This document shows, piece after piece, positions 3,505-9,276 of a stretch of 64,000 nt of DNA. The notes under the pieces were generated by a model. It ran no database searches. It was not told where the DNA came from and was given only the letters and a program-made list of their open reading frames with translations. This DNA is from Hyphomicrobiales bacterium (GTDB lineage: Bacteria; Pseudomonadota; Alphaproteobacteria; Rhizobiales; NORP267), in assembly GCA_021775875.1 (NCBI GenBank), contig JAJFHA010000011.1, positions 200,178-264,177 on the forward strand, written 5' to 3'. Position numbers and translations under genes: made by a program. Position 1 is the first letter of the stretch. Each line of letters opens with the position of its first letter.

Positions 3505-4656
3505 TCAGATAACTTTGCGAACCTCTTGGATGAATTCGGCGATGCTACCGCGCATATGTTCGCCCTTTTCAGCCAACTCGTTGGATGCTTCCAGAACCTG
3601 ACCCGCAGCTTCGCCGGATTGACCGATCGCGGAACTGATTTCCTGAATGTTAGTGCTGACTTCACTGGTTCCAACAGACGCCTGCTCGATGTTGCGGGCA
3701 ATCTCACGGGTTGCAGCGCTTTGCTCTTCAACCGCAGCAGCGATTGCGGAGGCAATCTCGTTGATTCGGGCTATTGAACCGCCGATTGTTTCAATCGATC
3801 CAACCGCCTGATTGCTGGCCGATTGGATGCCACCAATCTGGGATTCGATTTCTTCTGTTGCCTTAGCAGTTTGATCTGCGAGTGCTTTGACCTCAGACGC
3901 CACAACCGCAAAGCCCTTGCCAGCTTCACCTGCGCGTGCCGCTTCAATCGTAGCATTCAACGCTAGCAGGTTTGTCTGTGCAGCAATATCAGAAATAAGC
4001 GATACGACCTGGCCGATTTTCTCGGAGGCATCGGAAAGACCCGTAATATCTTCCTTGGTTTGCTCCACATCCTTGACGGCATTCAAGGTAGCTTCCGTAG
4101 ATTGGCTAACCTGCTGGTTGATTTCATCAACAGAGTTTGTCAGCTCTTCTGTTGCAGCTGCAACAGAACCCACATTGGCGGATGCCTGTTCGGCAGCTGA
4201 TGCCACATTTGTAGACTGATCACTTGCAGATGTTGAAGATGCAGACAGGGTTTCAGCGGATGCCTGAAGCTCCGTTGCTGCTGAAGCAACAGACTCAACA
4301 ACCTCGCCCATCTGACCTTCAAAGCCGCCGATCACATTGGTGAATTCGGAGACCTTTTGTTCCATCGATTCCATTGCATTATTCACAACCTGGCTTGCCT
4401 CACCGAAGGCACCAGTCATGCCGCGCTCTGCAATGCGTCGGAAATATTTGTTTGCGGCTACGTATTCAAGAGACGCGCGGGTTTCCCGTACATAAGCGTC
4501 TGAACGGTCAATCAATCTGTTGATGGCGTTCAATAACCGGCCAGCGTCGCCTTTTTCTGTGATGTTGATGATGCGTGCTTCCATATCACCGTCTGCAACG
4601 GCTTCACATACCTCAACCGCCTTTAAAATCGCGGATTTGTAATCATTGTTAAACAT
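3505..4656 (-). CDS. Soluble methyl-accepting chemotaxis protein (no membrane segment)
   Basis: A 383-residue cytoplasmic chemoreceptor. Residues about 1-80 look HAMP-like ([14 protein letters not shown], then [17 protein letters not shown]), followed by the long antiparallel coiled coil. The kinase-control tip is present as [20 protein letters not shown], followed by [16 protein letters not shown]. There is no signal peptide, membrane helix or periplasmic domain, and no C-terminal NWETF-type CheR tether. It lies 59 bases downstream of, and on the same strand as, an Aer-type PAS gene, so the two may form one oxygen or redox receptor from separate chains. That pairing is inference. No che genes are in the window, so its CheA/CheW partners must lie elsewhere. 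Confidence 0.92.
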
Positions 4657-4715
4657 GTTTCAAAGCTTCCATTGGATTGAATCTGTCAGGTTTGTTTTGA
4701 CCTGCCCGGTATATT

Positions 4716-5246
4716 TTAAGCGTGGAGAGATGCTACAAATTCGTCATATTCGACGTTGCGCTCACTCAGCATGCCGGTGATCATTCCAGTAGAGGCTTCA
4801 AGACCGGATTTTCGGTTGGAATGGCGTTGTTCTTCTTTCAGCAGATCACGATAAAGAGGGATGATTGCGGAATCCAGGATGTTGCGATCAGGAACACGAC
4901 GGTTTGAATGATACCCGACAATATTGCCTGACCCGTCGCGGCTTGGCGTGACGTGCGCATTGACCCAATAATGATCGCCGTTTTTACAACGATTCATCAC
5001 ATAAGCAAAAATTTCACGGCCGTCCTGAATGGTCTCCCAAAGCAAGCCAAAGATGCAACGTGGCATGTCTGGATGCCTGATCATGCTGTGTGGCTGGCCC
5101 AGACATTCCTGTTCGGTATATCCAGCCAGCCGCAAAAACACATCGTTACAATAGGTAAGTTTGCCTTTGAGGTCGGTTTTGCTGACAATGAGTTCGTTTT
5201 CCTCGAAAAACTGCTCCACGCCCGTCAGTGAGTTATTCTGTTTCAT
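4716..5246 (-). CDS. Aer-type PAS domain protein (probable FAD redox sensor)
   Basis: A 176-residue protein with an N-terminal PAS domain closely resembling the E. coli aerotaxis receptor Aer. The block GQPHSMIRHPDMP places Arg57, His58 and Asp60 at the numbering of the Aer residues implicated in FAD binding, and Trp70 and Asn34 also match. KNGDHYWV near 89-95 is the conserved PAS core strand. After about residue 120 come a short helical stretch and a charged linker; the Aer membrane anchor, HAMP and signalling domain are absent. The likely role is sensing cellular redox state and passing it to the soluble chemoreceptor encoded next. It could also be a standalone PAS partner of another kinase. 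Confidence 0.85.
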   Translation of the reverse strand: MKQNNSLTGVEQFFEENELIVSKTDLKGKLTYCNDVFLRLAGYTEQECLGQPHSMIRHPDMPRCIFGLLWETIQDGREIFAYVMNRCKNGDHYWVNAHVTPSRDGSGNIVGYHSNRRVPDRNILDSAIIPLYRDLLKEEQRHSNRKSGLEASTGMITGMLSERNVEYDEFVASLHA

Positions 5247-5489
5247 CTAGGTCTCCTTTGGTGCCCGCAGGAACAATCGTTCCGTACAAAGAATAGAATG
5301 TTGACTTGTGTTCAACACCTAGCGTTACAGTCATTGAAAAAGGTTAATGAAACACACCTTTAACGAGAATAAAAAAAATAAAGCTCGCAAGGTGCGCGTG
5401 TAAATGCTGATAGTTTAGGGAAAAAATATACAAAACAAGTAGATAACAATTTCTTGATGTTTGTTACCGCGCCGGAAATAATATCAAGC

Positions 5490-5552: not shown

Positions 5553-5654
5553 ATGACCACATCGATTGTCAGAGAATTTTTTGCAGCGGTTTCATTGGTT
5601 ATGTTCGCTTTTGGAGCTTTTAGCTTCACTGGTTTGCTGCAATTCGCGCTTTAG
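5553..5654 (+). CDS. Possible small single-pass membrane protein (33 aa)
   Basis: A 33-codon ORF in the 550-base gap between the PAS gene and dnaE, running ATG 5553 to TAG 5654. GGCAGGTGAGG lies just before the start and is a good ribosome-binding site; a promoter-like pair lies 30-60 bases upstream. The product begins MTTSIVREFF and then is almost continuously hydrophobic (AAVSLVMFAFGAFSFTGLL), as expected for a one-helix inner-membrane peptide. I recognise no family. The promoter, RBS and helix together make it more likely than a chance ORF, but conservation is untested. The rest of the gap shows no other gene. Confidence 0.4.
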   Translation: MTTSIVREFFAAVSLVMFAFGAFSFTGLLQFAL

Positions 5655-5796: not shown

Positions 5797-8700
5797 ATGA
5801 CTGACAATCTACCTGATGGAGGTGGGCCGAATTTCGTGCATTTGCGTGTACGATCAGCTTATTCCTTGCTCCAGGGGGCTTTGCCGGTATCCCGGTTGGT
5901 TGAACTGGCGAGCGCGGATCAGATGCCTGCACTTGCGGTAACTGATTCGGGAAATTTGTTCGGTGCGCTGGAAATTGCGGTCAAATTGGCCAAAGCCGGT
6001 GTTCAGCCAATCATCGGGTGTTCTTTGCCGATTGATCTGGATTGTCCGGAAGAAACAGATTTATCCGGTGATCACGAACAGGGACCTCTCCAAAATAACC
6101 ATTCGATCAATCAGTCATTTCCTGAAATCATTCTCATCGCCACCAATGAAGGCGGGTACAAAAATCTGCTGAACCTTTCCAGTCGGGCATATCTGGGATC
6201 GGACGGAACCGGTCAGGCGCATATCACAAAGGGTGATCTGGAGCAGTTTTCTGAAGGGCTTATCGTTTTAACCGGTGATTCTCATGGCCTTTTGGGCAAA
6301 CATATATTGACAGGAGACGAAGGCGCAGCCCGCTCTATCCTGTCCGACTTGCGCAGGACCTTTGGCGACAGGCTTTATGTTGAAATTCAGCGTCACGGCA
6401 CAGATTCCGAGCGAAAGACGGAACCTGTATTGATCCAGCTCGCCTATGAATTGTCCGTACCACTGGTTGCGACAAACGATTGTCATTTCCCGACCGAAAG
6501 CGATTTTGAAGCCCATGATGCTCTGATGTGCATAGCCGAAGGAAAGGTCGTCGAAGACCCCAACCGGCACCGCTTGACTCCGGACCATTGGTTCAAGAGC
6601 CGGACGAAAATGCAGGCGCTGTTCGCTGATTTGCCGGAAGCGCTGGAAAATAGCGTCGAAATTGCCAAGCGGTGCAATTATTGGCCTGAGCCGTCGGCCC
6701 CGGTATTACCAACTTTTTTCGAGGGCGATGAAGACGGAGAATTAAGGCGCAATGCGGAGGAGGGGCTCAAGGCGCGTTTGAAAGCGCATGGCTTAGCCAA
6801 GGGTTACAGCCAGGAAGCGTATCACGAGCGCCTGGAGTTTGAGCTCGAAGTTATCGTTCGTATGCATTATTCGGGCTACTTTCTGATCGTTGCTGATTTT
6901 ATTAAATGGGCGAAAGATCAGGGCATCCCGGTAGGGCCCGGGCGTGGGTCAGGGGCAGGTTCACTGGTGGCCTGGGCACTGACGATTACCGATCTGGACC
7001 CGATGCAATTTGATTTACTGTTCGAGCGGTTCTTGAATCCTGAACGTATTTCAATGCCGGATTTTGATATCGATTTTTGTCAGGATCGCCGCGACGAAGT
7101 TATTGCTTATGTGAGAGACAGATATGGGCGCAGTCAGGTAGCCCAAATCATCACCTTTGGCACGCTTCAATCACGCATCGTTCTGCGAGACGTTGGCCGC
7201 GTTTTGCAAATGCGTTACGGTGATATCGATGCTTTGTGCAAGATGATCCCCAACAATCCGGCCAATCCGGTATCATTGTTTCAGGCAATAGCCGGTGAAA
7301 AACGAATCCAGGAAGCGCGCGATAACGACCCTCAGGTCGCGAAATTGCTGGAAATTTCGCTCCGCCTTGAAGGGCTGTATCGTCACGCTTCAACCCACGC
7401 TGCCGGGCTGGTAATCGGAGACCGACCGCTGGTTGAAATGGTGCCGCTCTACCTGGATCCGCGATCTGATATTCCGGCAACCCAATTCAGCATGAAATGG
7501 GTGGAGCAAGCCGGTCTGGTGAAGTTTGATTTCCTTGGCTTGAAAACCCTGACCGTTATTCAAAAAACACTTACTTCACTCAGAAAACGGGATATCAATT
7601 TGGACATATCCGGTTTGCCGCTGGATGATGAAAAGACTTACAAAATGCTCGCCGAGGGCGAAACGGTCGGTGTGTTCCAGCTTGAAAGTGGTGGCATGCG
7701 GGATCTGGTGCGCAGCACCATGCCCAGCGTATTTGAGGATATTATAGCACTCGTTGCTTTGTTCCGGCCCGGCCCGATGCAGAATATTCCTAAATACCGC
7801 GCCAGTAAACTGGGCGAAAAGAAGCCTGAATTTTTGCACGAAACCATCGAACCTGTGGTCAAAGATACCTACGGCGTCATCATCTATCAGGAACAGGTGA
7901 TGCAGATTGCTCAAGTATTTTCGGGCTACACGCTAGGCGAAGCTGATTTATTGCGCCGCGCCATGGGCAAGAAAGATCAGGCCGAGATGGATTCTCAACG
8001 TACCCGGTTTGTAGAGGGTGCGATTGAACGGGGTGTCGAGCGGGCACGCGCCGAATATGTGTTCGAACTGGTCGATCGGTTTGCCGGTTACGGTTTTAAC
8101 AAAAGCCATTCCGCCTGTTATGCCCTGATCGCCTATCAAACCGCGTATCTGAAGGCTAATTACCCGGTTGAATTTTTGGCCGCATCCATGACCCTGGATA
8201 TCAATAATACGGACAAATTGAATGACTTTCGTGGTGATGCAGCACGGCTTGATATTGAAATTCTGCCACCGTCGATCAATTCTTCCGACGTGGATTTCTT
8301 GCCCGAAAATGGCGCCATCCGCTATTCACTTGCCGCAATCCGGAATGTGGGCCGACAGGCCGTTGCCCATATCGCAGCATGCCGGAAAGAGGAGGGGCCG
8401 TTCAATGACCTCGCAGATTTCGCGTCCCGCATAAACCCCCGCCAGATCAATCGCCGGGCAATGGAAAACATGACGGCCGCAGGAGCATTCGACGAGTTGA
8501 CGCCTAACCGGGCTGCCGTGTCCAAAGGCGCAGATGTTATTCTGGCGACCGCCGCACGGAATATGGAAAACCAGCAAAGTGGGCAGAATGACCTGTTTGC
8601 AGGAACCATTTCCGAGGTCAGCCTGTCACTTCCCATGAGTGAGCCTTGGTTGCCGGTCGAGCAATTGAACAGGGAATTCGCGGCCCTTGGTCTATTCCTG

Positions 8701-9276
8701 TCGGGTCATCCGCTACAGGATTATTTGTCGTCATTCAAAAAACGCAATATCAAGACGTGGCGCGAATTCTGCGAGGGTGTTTCATCTGGCCAGACAGCTG
8801 GAAAACTGGCCGGAATTGTATTGTACCGCAAAGAGCGCCGCAGCCAGAAAGGCACGCCTTACGCCTTTGTCGGTCTGTCGGACCCGTCCGGCCAATATGA
8901 AGCGGTCATATTCTCCGAATCCCTTGCCGATTACCGCGACCGGCTTGAAGCGGGCAGTATGGTGCAGGTTGTTGTTGAAGCGGAGATGCGCGACGGTGGC
9001 GAGGTGAAGGCTCAGATTACCAGAGTGGAAAAAATTGACGAGTCACCCACAGCCAAGCCGAAATCCCTGAAATTGCTACTTGATGAAACAGCCGATATTG
9101 AAAGCATCGCCAGCCGCCTTCCGGGTAAAGGTGTCGGCGAGGTTACATTTGTTGTGTTCAGCAAGGAGCGTCGTCAGGAAGTGGATATATTGCTGCCTGA
9201 AAAATTCGATATAACGCCTGAAAAAGCCGGTGCGCTGAAGGCTGTACCCGGCGTTCTGGATGTGATTCTGAACTGA
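5797..9276 (+). CDS. dnaE: DNA polymerase III alpha subunit
   Basis: Replicative DNA polymerase catalytic subunit, 1159 residues, the usual DnaE1 length. The N-terminal PHP domain starts with FVHLRVRSAYSLLQGALPV. The C-family polymerase core is clear: GPGRGSGAGSLVAWAL and the catalytic Asp pair in MPDFDIDFCQDRRDEVIAYV near residues 420-430. The helix-hairpin-helix region (FAGYGFNKSHSACYALIAYQ) and an OB-fold with GIVLYRKERRSQKGTPYAFV follow. There is no sign of the short error-prone DnaE2. It stands 3' of the accessory chemoreceptor block and 5' of rpsB. ATG 5797 is the first plausible start, and a 7-bp hairpin lies just upstream of it. Confidence 0.98.
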   Translation: MTDNLPDGGGPNFVHLRVRSAYSLLQGALPVSRLVELASADQMPALAVTDSGNLFGALEIAVKLAKAGVQPIIGCSLPIDLDCPEETDLSGDHEQGPLQNNHSINQSFPEIILIATNEGGYKNLLNLSSRAYLGSDGTGQAHITKGDLEQFSEGLIVLTGDSHGLLGKHILTGDEGAARSILSDLRRTFGDRLYVEIQRHGTDSERKTEPVLIQLAYELSVPLVATNDCHFPTESDFEAHDALMCIAEGKVVEDPNRHRLTPDHWFKSRTKMQALFADLPEALENSVEIAKRCNYWPEPSAPVLPTFFEGDEDGELRRNAEEGLKARLKAHGLAKGYSQEAYHERLEFELEVIVRMHYSGYFLIVADFIKWAKDQGIPVGPGRGSGAGSLVAWALTITDLDPMQFDLLFERFLNPERISMPDFDIDFCQDRRDEVIAYVRDRYGRSQVAQIITFGTLQSRIVLRDVGRVLQMRYGDIDALCKMIPNNPANPVSLFQAIAGEKRIQEARDNDPQVAKLLEISLRLEGLYRHASTHAAGLVIGDRPLVEMVPLYLDPRSDIPATQFSMKWVEQAGLVKFDFLGLKTLTVIQKTLTSLRKRDINLDISGLPLDDEKTYKMLAEGETVGVFQLESGGMRDLVRSTMPSVFEDIIALVALFRPGPMQNIPKYRASKLGEKKPEFLHETIEPVVKDTYGVIIYQEQVMQIAQVFSGYTLGEADLLRRAMGKKDQAEMDSQRTRFVEGAIERGVERARAEYVFELVDRFAGYGFNKSHSACYALIAYQTAYLKANYPVEFLAASMTLDINNTDKLNDFRGDAARLDIEILPPSINSSDVDFLPENGAIRYSLAAIRNVGRQAVAHIAACRKEEGPFNDLADFASRINPRQINRRAMENMTAAGAFDELTPNRAAVSKGADVILATAARNMENQQSGQNDLFAGTISEVSLSLPMSEPWLPVEQLNREFAALGLFLSGHPLQDYLSSFKKRNIKTWREFCEGVSSGQTAGKLAGIVLYRKERRSQKGTPYAFVGLSDPSGQYEAVIFSESLADYRDRLEAGSMVQVVVEAEMRDGGEVKAQITRVEKIDESPTAKPKSLKLLLDETADIESIASRLPGKGVGEVTFVVFSKERRQEVDILLPEKFDITPEKAGALKAVPGVLDVILN

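Follow-up and report, generated by a model that had tools for sequence, protein, structure and literature searches.

The window analysed here is a 64,000-nucleotide stretch of DNA from a Hyphomicrobiales bacterium (GenBank assembly GCA_021775875.1, contig JAJFHA010000011.1, positions 200,178 to 264,177 of the forward strand). It carries two neighbouring genes resembling cetB and cetA, which encode a PAS protein of the type found in the Escherichia coli receptor Aer and a methyl-accepting chemotaxis protein (MCP), respectively (Table 1). A sequence-only reading had described a PAS gene followed on the same strand, 59 bases later, by an MCP gene, with no membrane segment in either product and no sensory domain in the MCP itself. 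These features were borne out: both open reading frames (ORFs) lie on the minus strand on either side of the 59-base spacer, and Pfam found in the MCP only MCPsignal and a sub-threshold HAMP match. No membrane helix was predicted in either protein, because the hydropathy peaks were 0.55 for CetB and 1.24 for CetA (at residue 291) in a 19-residue Kyte-Doolittle scan, the sole membrane test used. A fused single chain was ruled out by the differing frames and by the stop codon and spacer between the ORFs. As developed below, the pair probably constitutes one two-chain, membrane-free receptor, in which a flavin adenine dinucleotide (FAD)-based redox sensor, CetB, works with a soluble CetA in aerotaxis or energy taxis.

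Table 1. Features of the cetB-cetA locus (positions within the window)
Feature	Position	Strand	Basis
cetB-like gene, Aer-type PAS protein, 176 aa	4716..5246	-	ORF, ATG start; Pfam, 8dik match
Soluble cetA-like gene, HAMP-type N-terminus and MCP signalling hairpin, 383 aa	3505..4656	-	ORF, ATG start; no membrane helix predicted
cetB-cetA spacer, exactly 59 bases	4657..4715	-	Read from sequence
AAAGGAG, likely ribosome-binding site of cetB, 6 nt upstream of ATG	5253..5259	-	Read from sequence
RHPD block, CetB residues 57-60, FAD-pocket segment	5067..5078	-	Alignment and 8dik structure match
Trp70 codon of CetB, FAD-determining Trp in Aer-type PAS	5037..5039	-	Alignment, W in 249/249 pairs
Asp35 codon of CetB, predicted salt-bridge and specificity residue	5142..5144	-	Coevolution, charge statistics
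Arg47 codon of CetA, HAMP second helix, predicted partner of CetB Asp35	4516..4518	-	Coevolution, charge statistics
CetB-type C-terminal helical extension, residues 120-174	4725..4889	-	Alignment reach; helices in models
HAMP-like module of CetA, residues 1-53	4498..4656	-	Pfam below cut-off; alignments; model
Conserved CetA post-HAMP helix-loop-helix, residues 54-110, NKYFRRI..GMTGAF block	4327..4497	-	Alignments; model
MCP signalling domain core of CetA, residues 185-345	3622..4104	-	Pfam PF00015

CetB of the window matched PAS_3 in Pfam (3.9e-15), and its closest solved relative by sequence search was the PAS domain of E. coli Aer (8dik, E 3.5e-31). The structural comparison was made with the model of a relative, L239, whose CetB is 84% identical to that of the window. 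This model matched 8dik with a Z score of 19.2 and a root-mean-square deviation of 1.0 over 127 residues (next chain, 14.0), its residues 8-136 aligning to residues 8-134 of 8dik. The RHPD block and Trp70 thus stand at the Aer numbering, as had been read from the sequence. The Foldseek and VIA rows mainly cover the PAS part (residues 15-135) and are therefore uninformative on PAS-HAMP placement; the Aer entry 31cj, a sequence match, was absent among the structure matches listed.

In CetB2 of Magnetospirillum gryphiswaldense, eight FAD-pocket residues have been described, H54, N55, R58, F67, W71, N86, V100 and R117 (PMC12442639). Seven of them are identical in the window CetB, numbered one lower (H53, R57, F66, W70, N85, V99 and R116), and the sole difference is Ser54 at the position of Asn55. 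Across the 249 CetB sequences of the paired alignment used below, Trp70 was invariant, Arg57 and Asn85 each had a single ambiguous row as the only exception, and Phe66 and His58 occurred in 245 and 238, respectively. The Trp has been described as an FAD determinant in Aer-type PAS domains (PMC10468136, PMC12442639). Because the pocket residues are kept, CetB of the window likely binds FAD.

The C-terminal extension of CetB was reached by the alignments of 37 of 47 short-ORF rows and 1 of 101 long-ORF rows among the matches listed (148 rows); in this count, the long-ORF relatives are at a greater distance, and this too shortens their alignments. In the L239 joint model, the extension forms helices at residues 121-141, 145-162 and 167-173. 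Some loci depart from the simple pair. At L127 (G343:C158, approximately 4023-4520), a 556-aa ORF combines a region that is HD-GYP-like by eye with a CetB-like domain bearing the C-terminal extension, and an MCP was not found beside it; a CetB of this type may be reused for another output. L013/L062, L059/L251, L067 and L145/L178 show two CetB genes near one CetA, or CetB tandems. By analogy, these loci recall the CetB plus CetC of Campylobacter jejuni and could provide mixed sensor subunits.

Pfam recognised MCPsignal in CetA of the window (1.8e-35) and gave no PAS match at E 0.1. From its first residues, soluble CetA aligned with the part of membrane CetA that lies after its membrane helices, and the hydropathy of the CetA N-terminal parts was bimodal in 300 relatives, with the bin from 1.4 to 1.6 empty. 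Judged by these alignments, soluble CetA looks like CetA minus the membrane hairpin, and its N-terminus looks like a HAMP-type module. Ten positions, G23, R28, N46, D50, R57, E58, R73, G79, G82 and N92, showed conservation of 90% or more in the soluble and the membrane CetA alike; nine conserved HAMP residues have been described for the CetA/CetB family (PMC2628428). Relative to three other MCPs of the same genome, CetA showed no indels from approximately residue 110 to the last helix, and before residue 110 it showed a 5-residue gap and an extra post-HAMP block.

To define how widely the pair occurs, named genomes were scanned with the soluble CetA N-terminus (15-row alignment), and the best 80 of 214 confirmed stretches were taken. 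At 79 of these 80 loci, or for 80 of 81 CetA ORFs, a co-directional CetB ORF was found no more than 186 bases upstream, counting overlaps that are due to generous ORF starts. The solubility of all 80 loci follows from the query, whereas CetB adjacency does not. The PAS-MCP adjacency first noted in this one genome is therefore conserved across genomes, and chance neighbourhood was ruled out by the 79 of 80 loci, the pair recurring across alphaproteobacterial families. The exception, L050, is from Robiginitomaculum isolate OFTM401; its solitary soluble CetA may draw on a CetB encoded elsewhere, for example at L084, where this isolate carries a complete pair.

Among 385 genomes sampled evenly from the class, CetB was detected in 58 at E 1e-40, compared with 102 of 397 genomes of the order at 1e-40 and 23 of 61 near relatives at 1e-10. 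The class census yielded 92 CetB records at 89 loci, with a soluble CetA partner in 43, a membrane partner in 37 and none in 12, where the two tandem CetB genes of G507, present in two loci, were counted twice among the twelve. All 332 CetB records, a pool enriched for window-like sequences and with some genomes present twice, comprised 206 soluble, 94 membrane, 31 partnerless and 1 fused. The median cetB-cetA gap was 37 nt in soluble pairs versus -26 (an overlap) in membrane pairs. The membrane-free CetBA variant is thus conserved and common among Alphaproteobacteria that have CetB.

A FastTree phylogeny was built from CetB plus CetA 1-110 of 162 representatives. On it, the soluble/membrane label requires 6 changes, versus approximately 54 for shuffled labels; the corresponding numbers were 10 with CetB alone and 5 with CetA alone. 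With 99% support, the window groups with other soluble pairs in a clade of 56, whose members come from Stappiaceae, Cohaesibacteraceae, Kiloniellaceae, Rhodobiaceae, Robiginitomaculaceae and Thalassobaculaceae, as well as others. Another soluble clade, of 20 pairs, likewise has support 99, and the well-supported branches alone are compatible with a single origin.

Coevolution between the two proteins was analysed in 300 pairs, 297 of which were usable; 249 remained after dropping those that were more than 95% identical or gappy, and 234 with nearly complete CetA served for the controls. By mean-field direct coupling analysis (DCA), the strongest inter-protein couplings were CetB35-CetA47 (2.29) and CetB102-CetA25 (1.86), compared with control maxima of 1.35 (CetB against CetA 111-220) and 1.49 (CetB against CetA 221-330). 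Twelve partner shuffles by mean-field gave at most 1.34. Pseudolikelihood DCA returned the same top two pairs (0.277 and 0.199, respectively), and four global shuffles gave at most 0.119 anywhere. In a joint model with CetA 1-340, 35/47 and 102/25 again ranked first and second (0.178 and 0.151), and the next pair scored 0.110. In six near-neighbour shuffles, in which the swapped CetA was approximately 55% identical, 35/47 fell to 0.008-0.195 and 102/25 to 0.062-0.158. When the classes were analysed separately, 35/47 ranked 1 of 12768 in soluble pairs and 4 of 15015 in membrane pairs, so that this contact looks common to both; 102/25 ranked 1 of 15015 in membrane pairs. A PAS-HAMP contact at CetB-35/CetA-47 is therefore predicted, which supplies, together with the joint models below, the PAS-MCP N-terminus interface that a two-chain receptor would need.

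Two further candidates were set aside. Mean-field DCA hinted that the CetB C-terminal helix packs on CetA 86-106 (B156-A106, B163-A97 and B171-A86), and of the three only B156-A106 (1.67) rose above both control maxima (1.35 and 1.49). This pair was third by pseudolikelihood (0.155) and outside the top 25 of the joint model, and the packing is not claimed. B42-A101 scored 1.65 by mean-field, above the controls, but 0.110 by pseudolikelihood.

The residues at 35/47 follow a charge pattern. They were Asp-Arg in 73 pairs, as in the window (Asp35/Arg47), and swapped to Arg-Asp in 20. Among all 249 pairs, the charges were opposite in 118, like in 11 and not both present in 120, versus 65, 62 and 122 after shuffling. 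Tree contrasts over all branches, computed with our own implementation and resting partly on weakly supported branches, gave approximately 10.9 opposite, 0.2 same and 4.9 without difference; for comparison, the highest excess among 136 control column pairs was 4.6.

The same residues were compared between paralogs in 50 genomes with at least 2 pairs (108 pairs), a test in which relatedness remains. Cognate combinations were opposite in 45, alike in 4 and neutral in 59 cases, versus 35, 33 and 64 for non-cognate combinations. Per genome, the cognate charge match was better than the non-cognate in 22, worse in 3 and equal in 25, and 5000 within-genome shuffles never gave a cognate charge score as low as the observed one. 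The window genome has a second soluble pair, whose CetB is 66% identical to the window CetB and which carries Arg35/Leu47. Since its Arg35 would face Arg47, the second CetB should clash with the window CetA, as far as the residues indicate. The 35/47 pair may therefore also keep paralogs apart. Herz et al. named partner specificity as one possible reason why CetBA paralogs do not substitute for one another (PMC12442639).

For joint structure models, CetB to CetA residue 118 was read through as one AlphaFold chain with stops as Gly; 60 soluble loci had both genes in frame, and 36 were kept. The L239 model reached a mean predicted local distance difference test (pLDDT) value of 86.7 and a predicted template modelling (pTM) score of 0.79, and that of the second pair of the window genome reached 87.7 and 0.82. 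The only reported segments with pLDDT below 50 were 176-195 (L239) and 178-210 (second pair), in or around the linker. Because both pTM scores exceed the approximately 0.52-0.56 that we estimate, from the pTM definition, for two modules of unknown relative placement, the placement of CetB and CetA in these models seems to be predicted with confidence.

Five MCP matches were obtained in the window genome. Two are soluble CetA, and the other three lie in ORFs of 699-745 aa with membrane peaks; one of these ORFs is incomplete at its start in its locus and has one peak. CheW-domain matches occurred in two ORFs only (158 aa and 1002 aa), read as CheW and CheA; they are followed by ORFs reading like CheY and CheB, forming one che cluster, and FliG is on the same contig. 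The CheA-like ORF of the window genome (L175, G000:C15, 622-3210, minus strand) has repeats of approximately 40 residues in its N-terminal part, two copies being visible. Promoter predictions numbered 4 versus 2.4 expected, none clearly above chance, and terminators 1 versus 3.0 expected, which is not beyond chance. A 33-codon plus-strand ORF at 5553-5654 of the window, encoding the hydrophobic peptide MTTSIVREFFAAVSLVMFAFGAFSFTGLLQFAL, lies between cetB and a large ORF (5797-9276) that reads by eye like DNA polymerase III alpha.

From the conserved adjacency, the inter-protein coevolution and the joint models, the two-chain soluble redox receptor suggested by the sequence-only reading is well supported; FAD binding, redox sensing, a complex in the cell and a taxis output, its direction included, are what we infer. 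CetB would most likely hold FAD and follow the redox or respiratory state of the cell. Its docking site would be the HAMP-like N-terminus of dimeric CetA, where CetB Asp35 would face CetA Arg47. A redox-driven change in the PAS domain would shift the HAMP bundle and the CetA hairpin would relay the signal to CheA/CheW and on to the flagella as aerotaxis or energy taxis. As its CetA has no membrane hairpin, unlike known CetA proteins, this receptor would be cytoplasmic or would join membrane arrays only via its signalling tip.

Several results weigh against this interpretation. The HAMP match of CetA stayed at 15.5 bits, below the cut-off of 25 (residues 11-50). CetB is restricted to a minority of genomes in near relatives, order and class alike, and 12 of the 92 census CetB have no neighbouring CetA. 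In the near-neighbour shuffles, 35/47 or 102/25 was still highest in 4 of 6, and the coupling signal is therefore partly shared by relatives; for 102/25, the rank in soluble pairs was no better than 158. When the charge pair is tested most strictly on the tree, with well-supported branches alone, only 4 contrasts remain (approximately 2.8 opposite, 0 same and 1.2 without difference; median p 0.25), and this test is underpowered. The structure models are artificial read-through chains with neither a CetA dimer nor a negative control, and they speak to the placement of the modules rather than to the 35/47 contact itself. Finally, E. coli Aer responds only when membrane-anchored (review PMC13401364), and a soluble version may therefore not respond to the same signal.

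The alternative that survives best, to which we give slightly less than an even chance, is that the receptor is membrane-free in its sequence only: its signalling tip packs into a membrane array, where CetB reads components of the respiratory chain. The CetA hairpin, free of indels against the three membrane MCPs from approximately residue 110 to its last helix, could therefore fit the same array, and the only two CheW-domain ORFs, read as one CheW and one CheA, are consistent with this. The cytoplasmic AerC and Tlp4b of Azospirillum brasilense interact with membrane arrays (review PMC13401364). Retention of a soluble class over many families would nevertheless be odd if anchoring were needed. 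Apart from the word cytoplasmic, this alternative is compatible with a two-chain soluble redox receptor.

PAS domains bind many different ligands, and CetB might instead use another cofactor, or report a protein partner as an apo-PAS domain. The Ser54 substitution in the pocket would fit such a role, which is nonetheless unlikely given the seven of eight pocket residues shared with FAD-binding CetB2, the invariant W70, the nearly invariant R57 and N85, and 8dik as the best fold match. Less probable still is a two-chain redox receptor whose che-like pathway governs biofilm formation or gene regulation, as the cheA/cheW-type ORFs are followed by CheY- and CheB-like ORFs, with FliG on the same contig. 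That the genes are mere neighbours, CetB signalling to another output and CetA being driven by another input, is the least plausible reading: it could draw on the CetB without a CetA neighbour and on the CetB-like domain of L127, but the adjacency at 79 of 80 loci and the residue-level coevolution with charge swaps speak against it.

The two-chain soluble receptor that we favour has well-studied relatives, and the suggestion that a split Aer would be a distinct architecture did not stand, since bipartite CetA/CetB receptors are known in C. jejuni (PMC2628428) and M. gryphiswaldense (PMC12442639). C. jejuni CetA/CetB likewise comprises a separate PAS protein and a HAMP-MCP from neighbouring genes, with FAD binding and PAS-HAMP signalling proposed, but its CetA is membrane-linked, unlike the window CetA with no predicted membrane segment (PMC2628428, PMC3558505). 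The gene order in the window, cetB-cetA, also sets it apart. M. gryphiswaldense CetB2/CetA2, also alphaproteobacterial, shares the neighbouring PAS and MCP genes and seven of eight pocket residues, and its interaction and FAD were shown by experiment; CetA2, however, is linked to the inner membrane and has transmembrane helices, and its gene overlaps cetB2 (PMC12442639), whereas the window has a soluble CetA and a 59-base spacer. E. coli Aer has the same PAS fold and numbering (8dik, Z 19.2 with the L239 model), including RHPD and Trp70, but it carries all four parts, PAS, membrane anchor, HAMP and signalling domain, on a single polypeptide. The window has two chains and no anchor, and its CetB carries, in contrast to Aer, a helical C-terminal extension beyond its alignments with long-ORF relatives. 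AerC of A. brasilense and CetZ/Tlp8 of C. jejuni are cytoplasmic PAS-MCP redox receptors as well, although they are single chains with two PAS domains (PMC13401364, PMC3558505), whereas the window MCP has no PAS match.

The window pair has the marks of the CetA/CetB type, namely a single-PAS protein and a HAMP-MCP that has no ligand domain, encoded by neighbouring genes in the same direction (the HAMP being below the Pfam cut-off), and an Aer-type PAS domain with the FAD-pocket residues. The transmembrane hairpin of canonical CetA is absent, and we therefore class the pair as a soluble variant rather than a canonical membrane CetBA. A 2026 review treats bipartite receptors as having a membrane CetA and AerC as the cytoplasmic single-chain type (PMC13401364); Amb0994 of Magnetospirillum magneticum is an MCP next to a PAS gene and lacks a periplasmic or sensory domain (PMC12442639, PMC7175107). 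No description of a soluble CetA was found in the consulted parts of the open-licence PubMed Central literature, and an earlier mention elsewhere is possible, most likely among the 55 CetA/CetB-type pairs that Elliott et al. in 2009 (J Bacteriol 191:375) are said to have reported. The bipartite principle is known; the membrane-free CetA class and the charge code look new, judged on open-licence literature.

In this organism, soluble bipartite redox receptors would account for two of the five receptors, which would give redox sensing a large part in its receptor set. A soluble receptor should also be easier to purify for structural and redox work. For C. jejuni, published work states that there is no known reason for the membrane location of CetA, given that CetB itself is soluble (PMC3558505). 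In the sampled Alphaproteobacteria, the anchor-free class is approximately as frequent as the anchored one (43 versus 37 of 92 CetB records), which opens the question of anchoring to direct comparison, and the 35/47 charge pair would offer a concrete basis for the partner specificity named by Herz et al. (PMC12442639). We regard as evenly balanced the broader proposal that Alphaproteobacteria hold a large, natural membrane-free class, that membrane anchoring is therefore dispensable for PAS-FAD energy sensing, and that paralogs are insulated by a 35/47 charge code that two substitutions could rewire.
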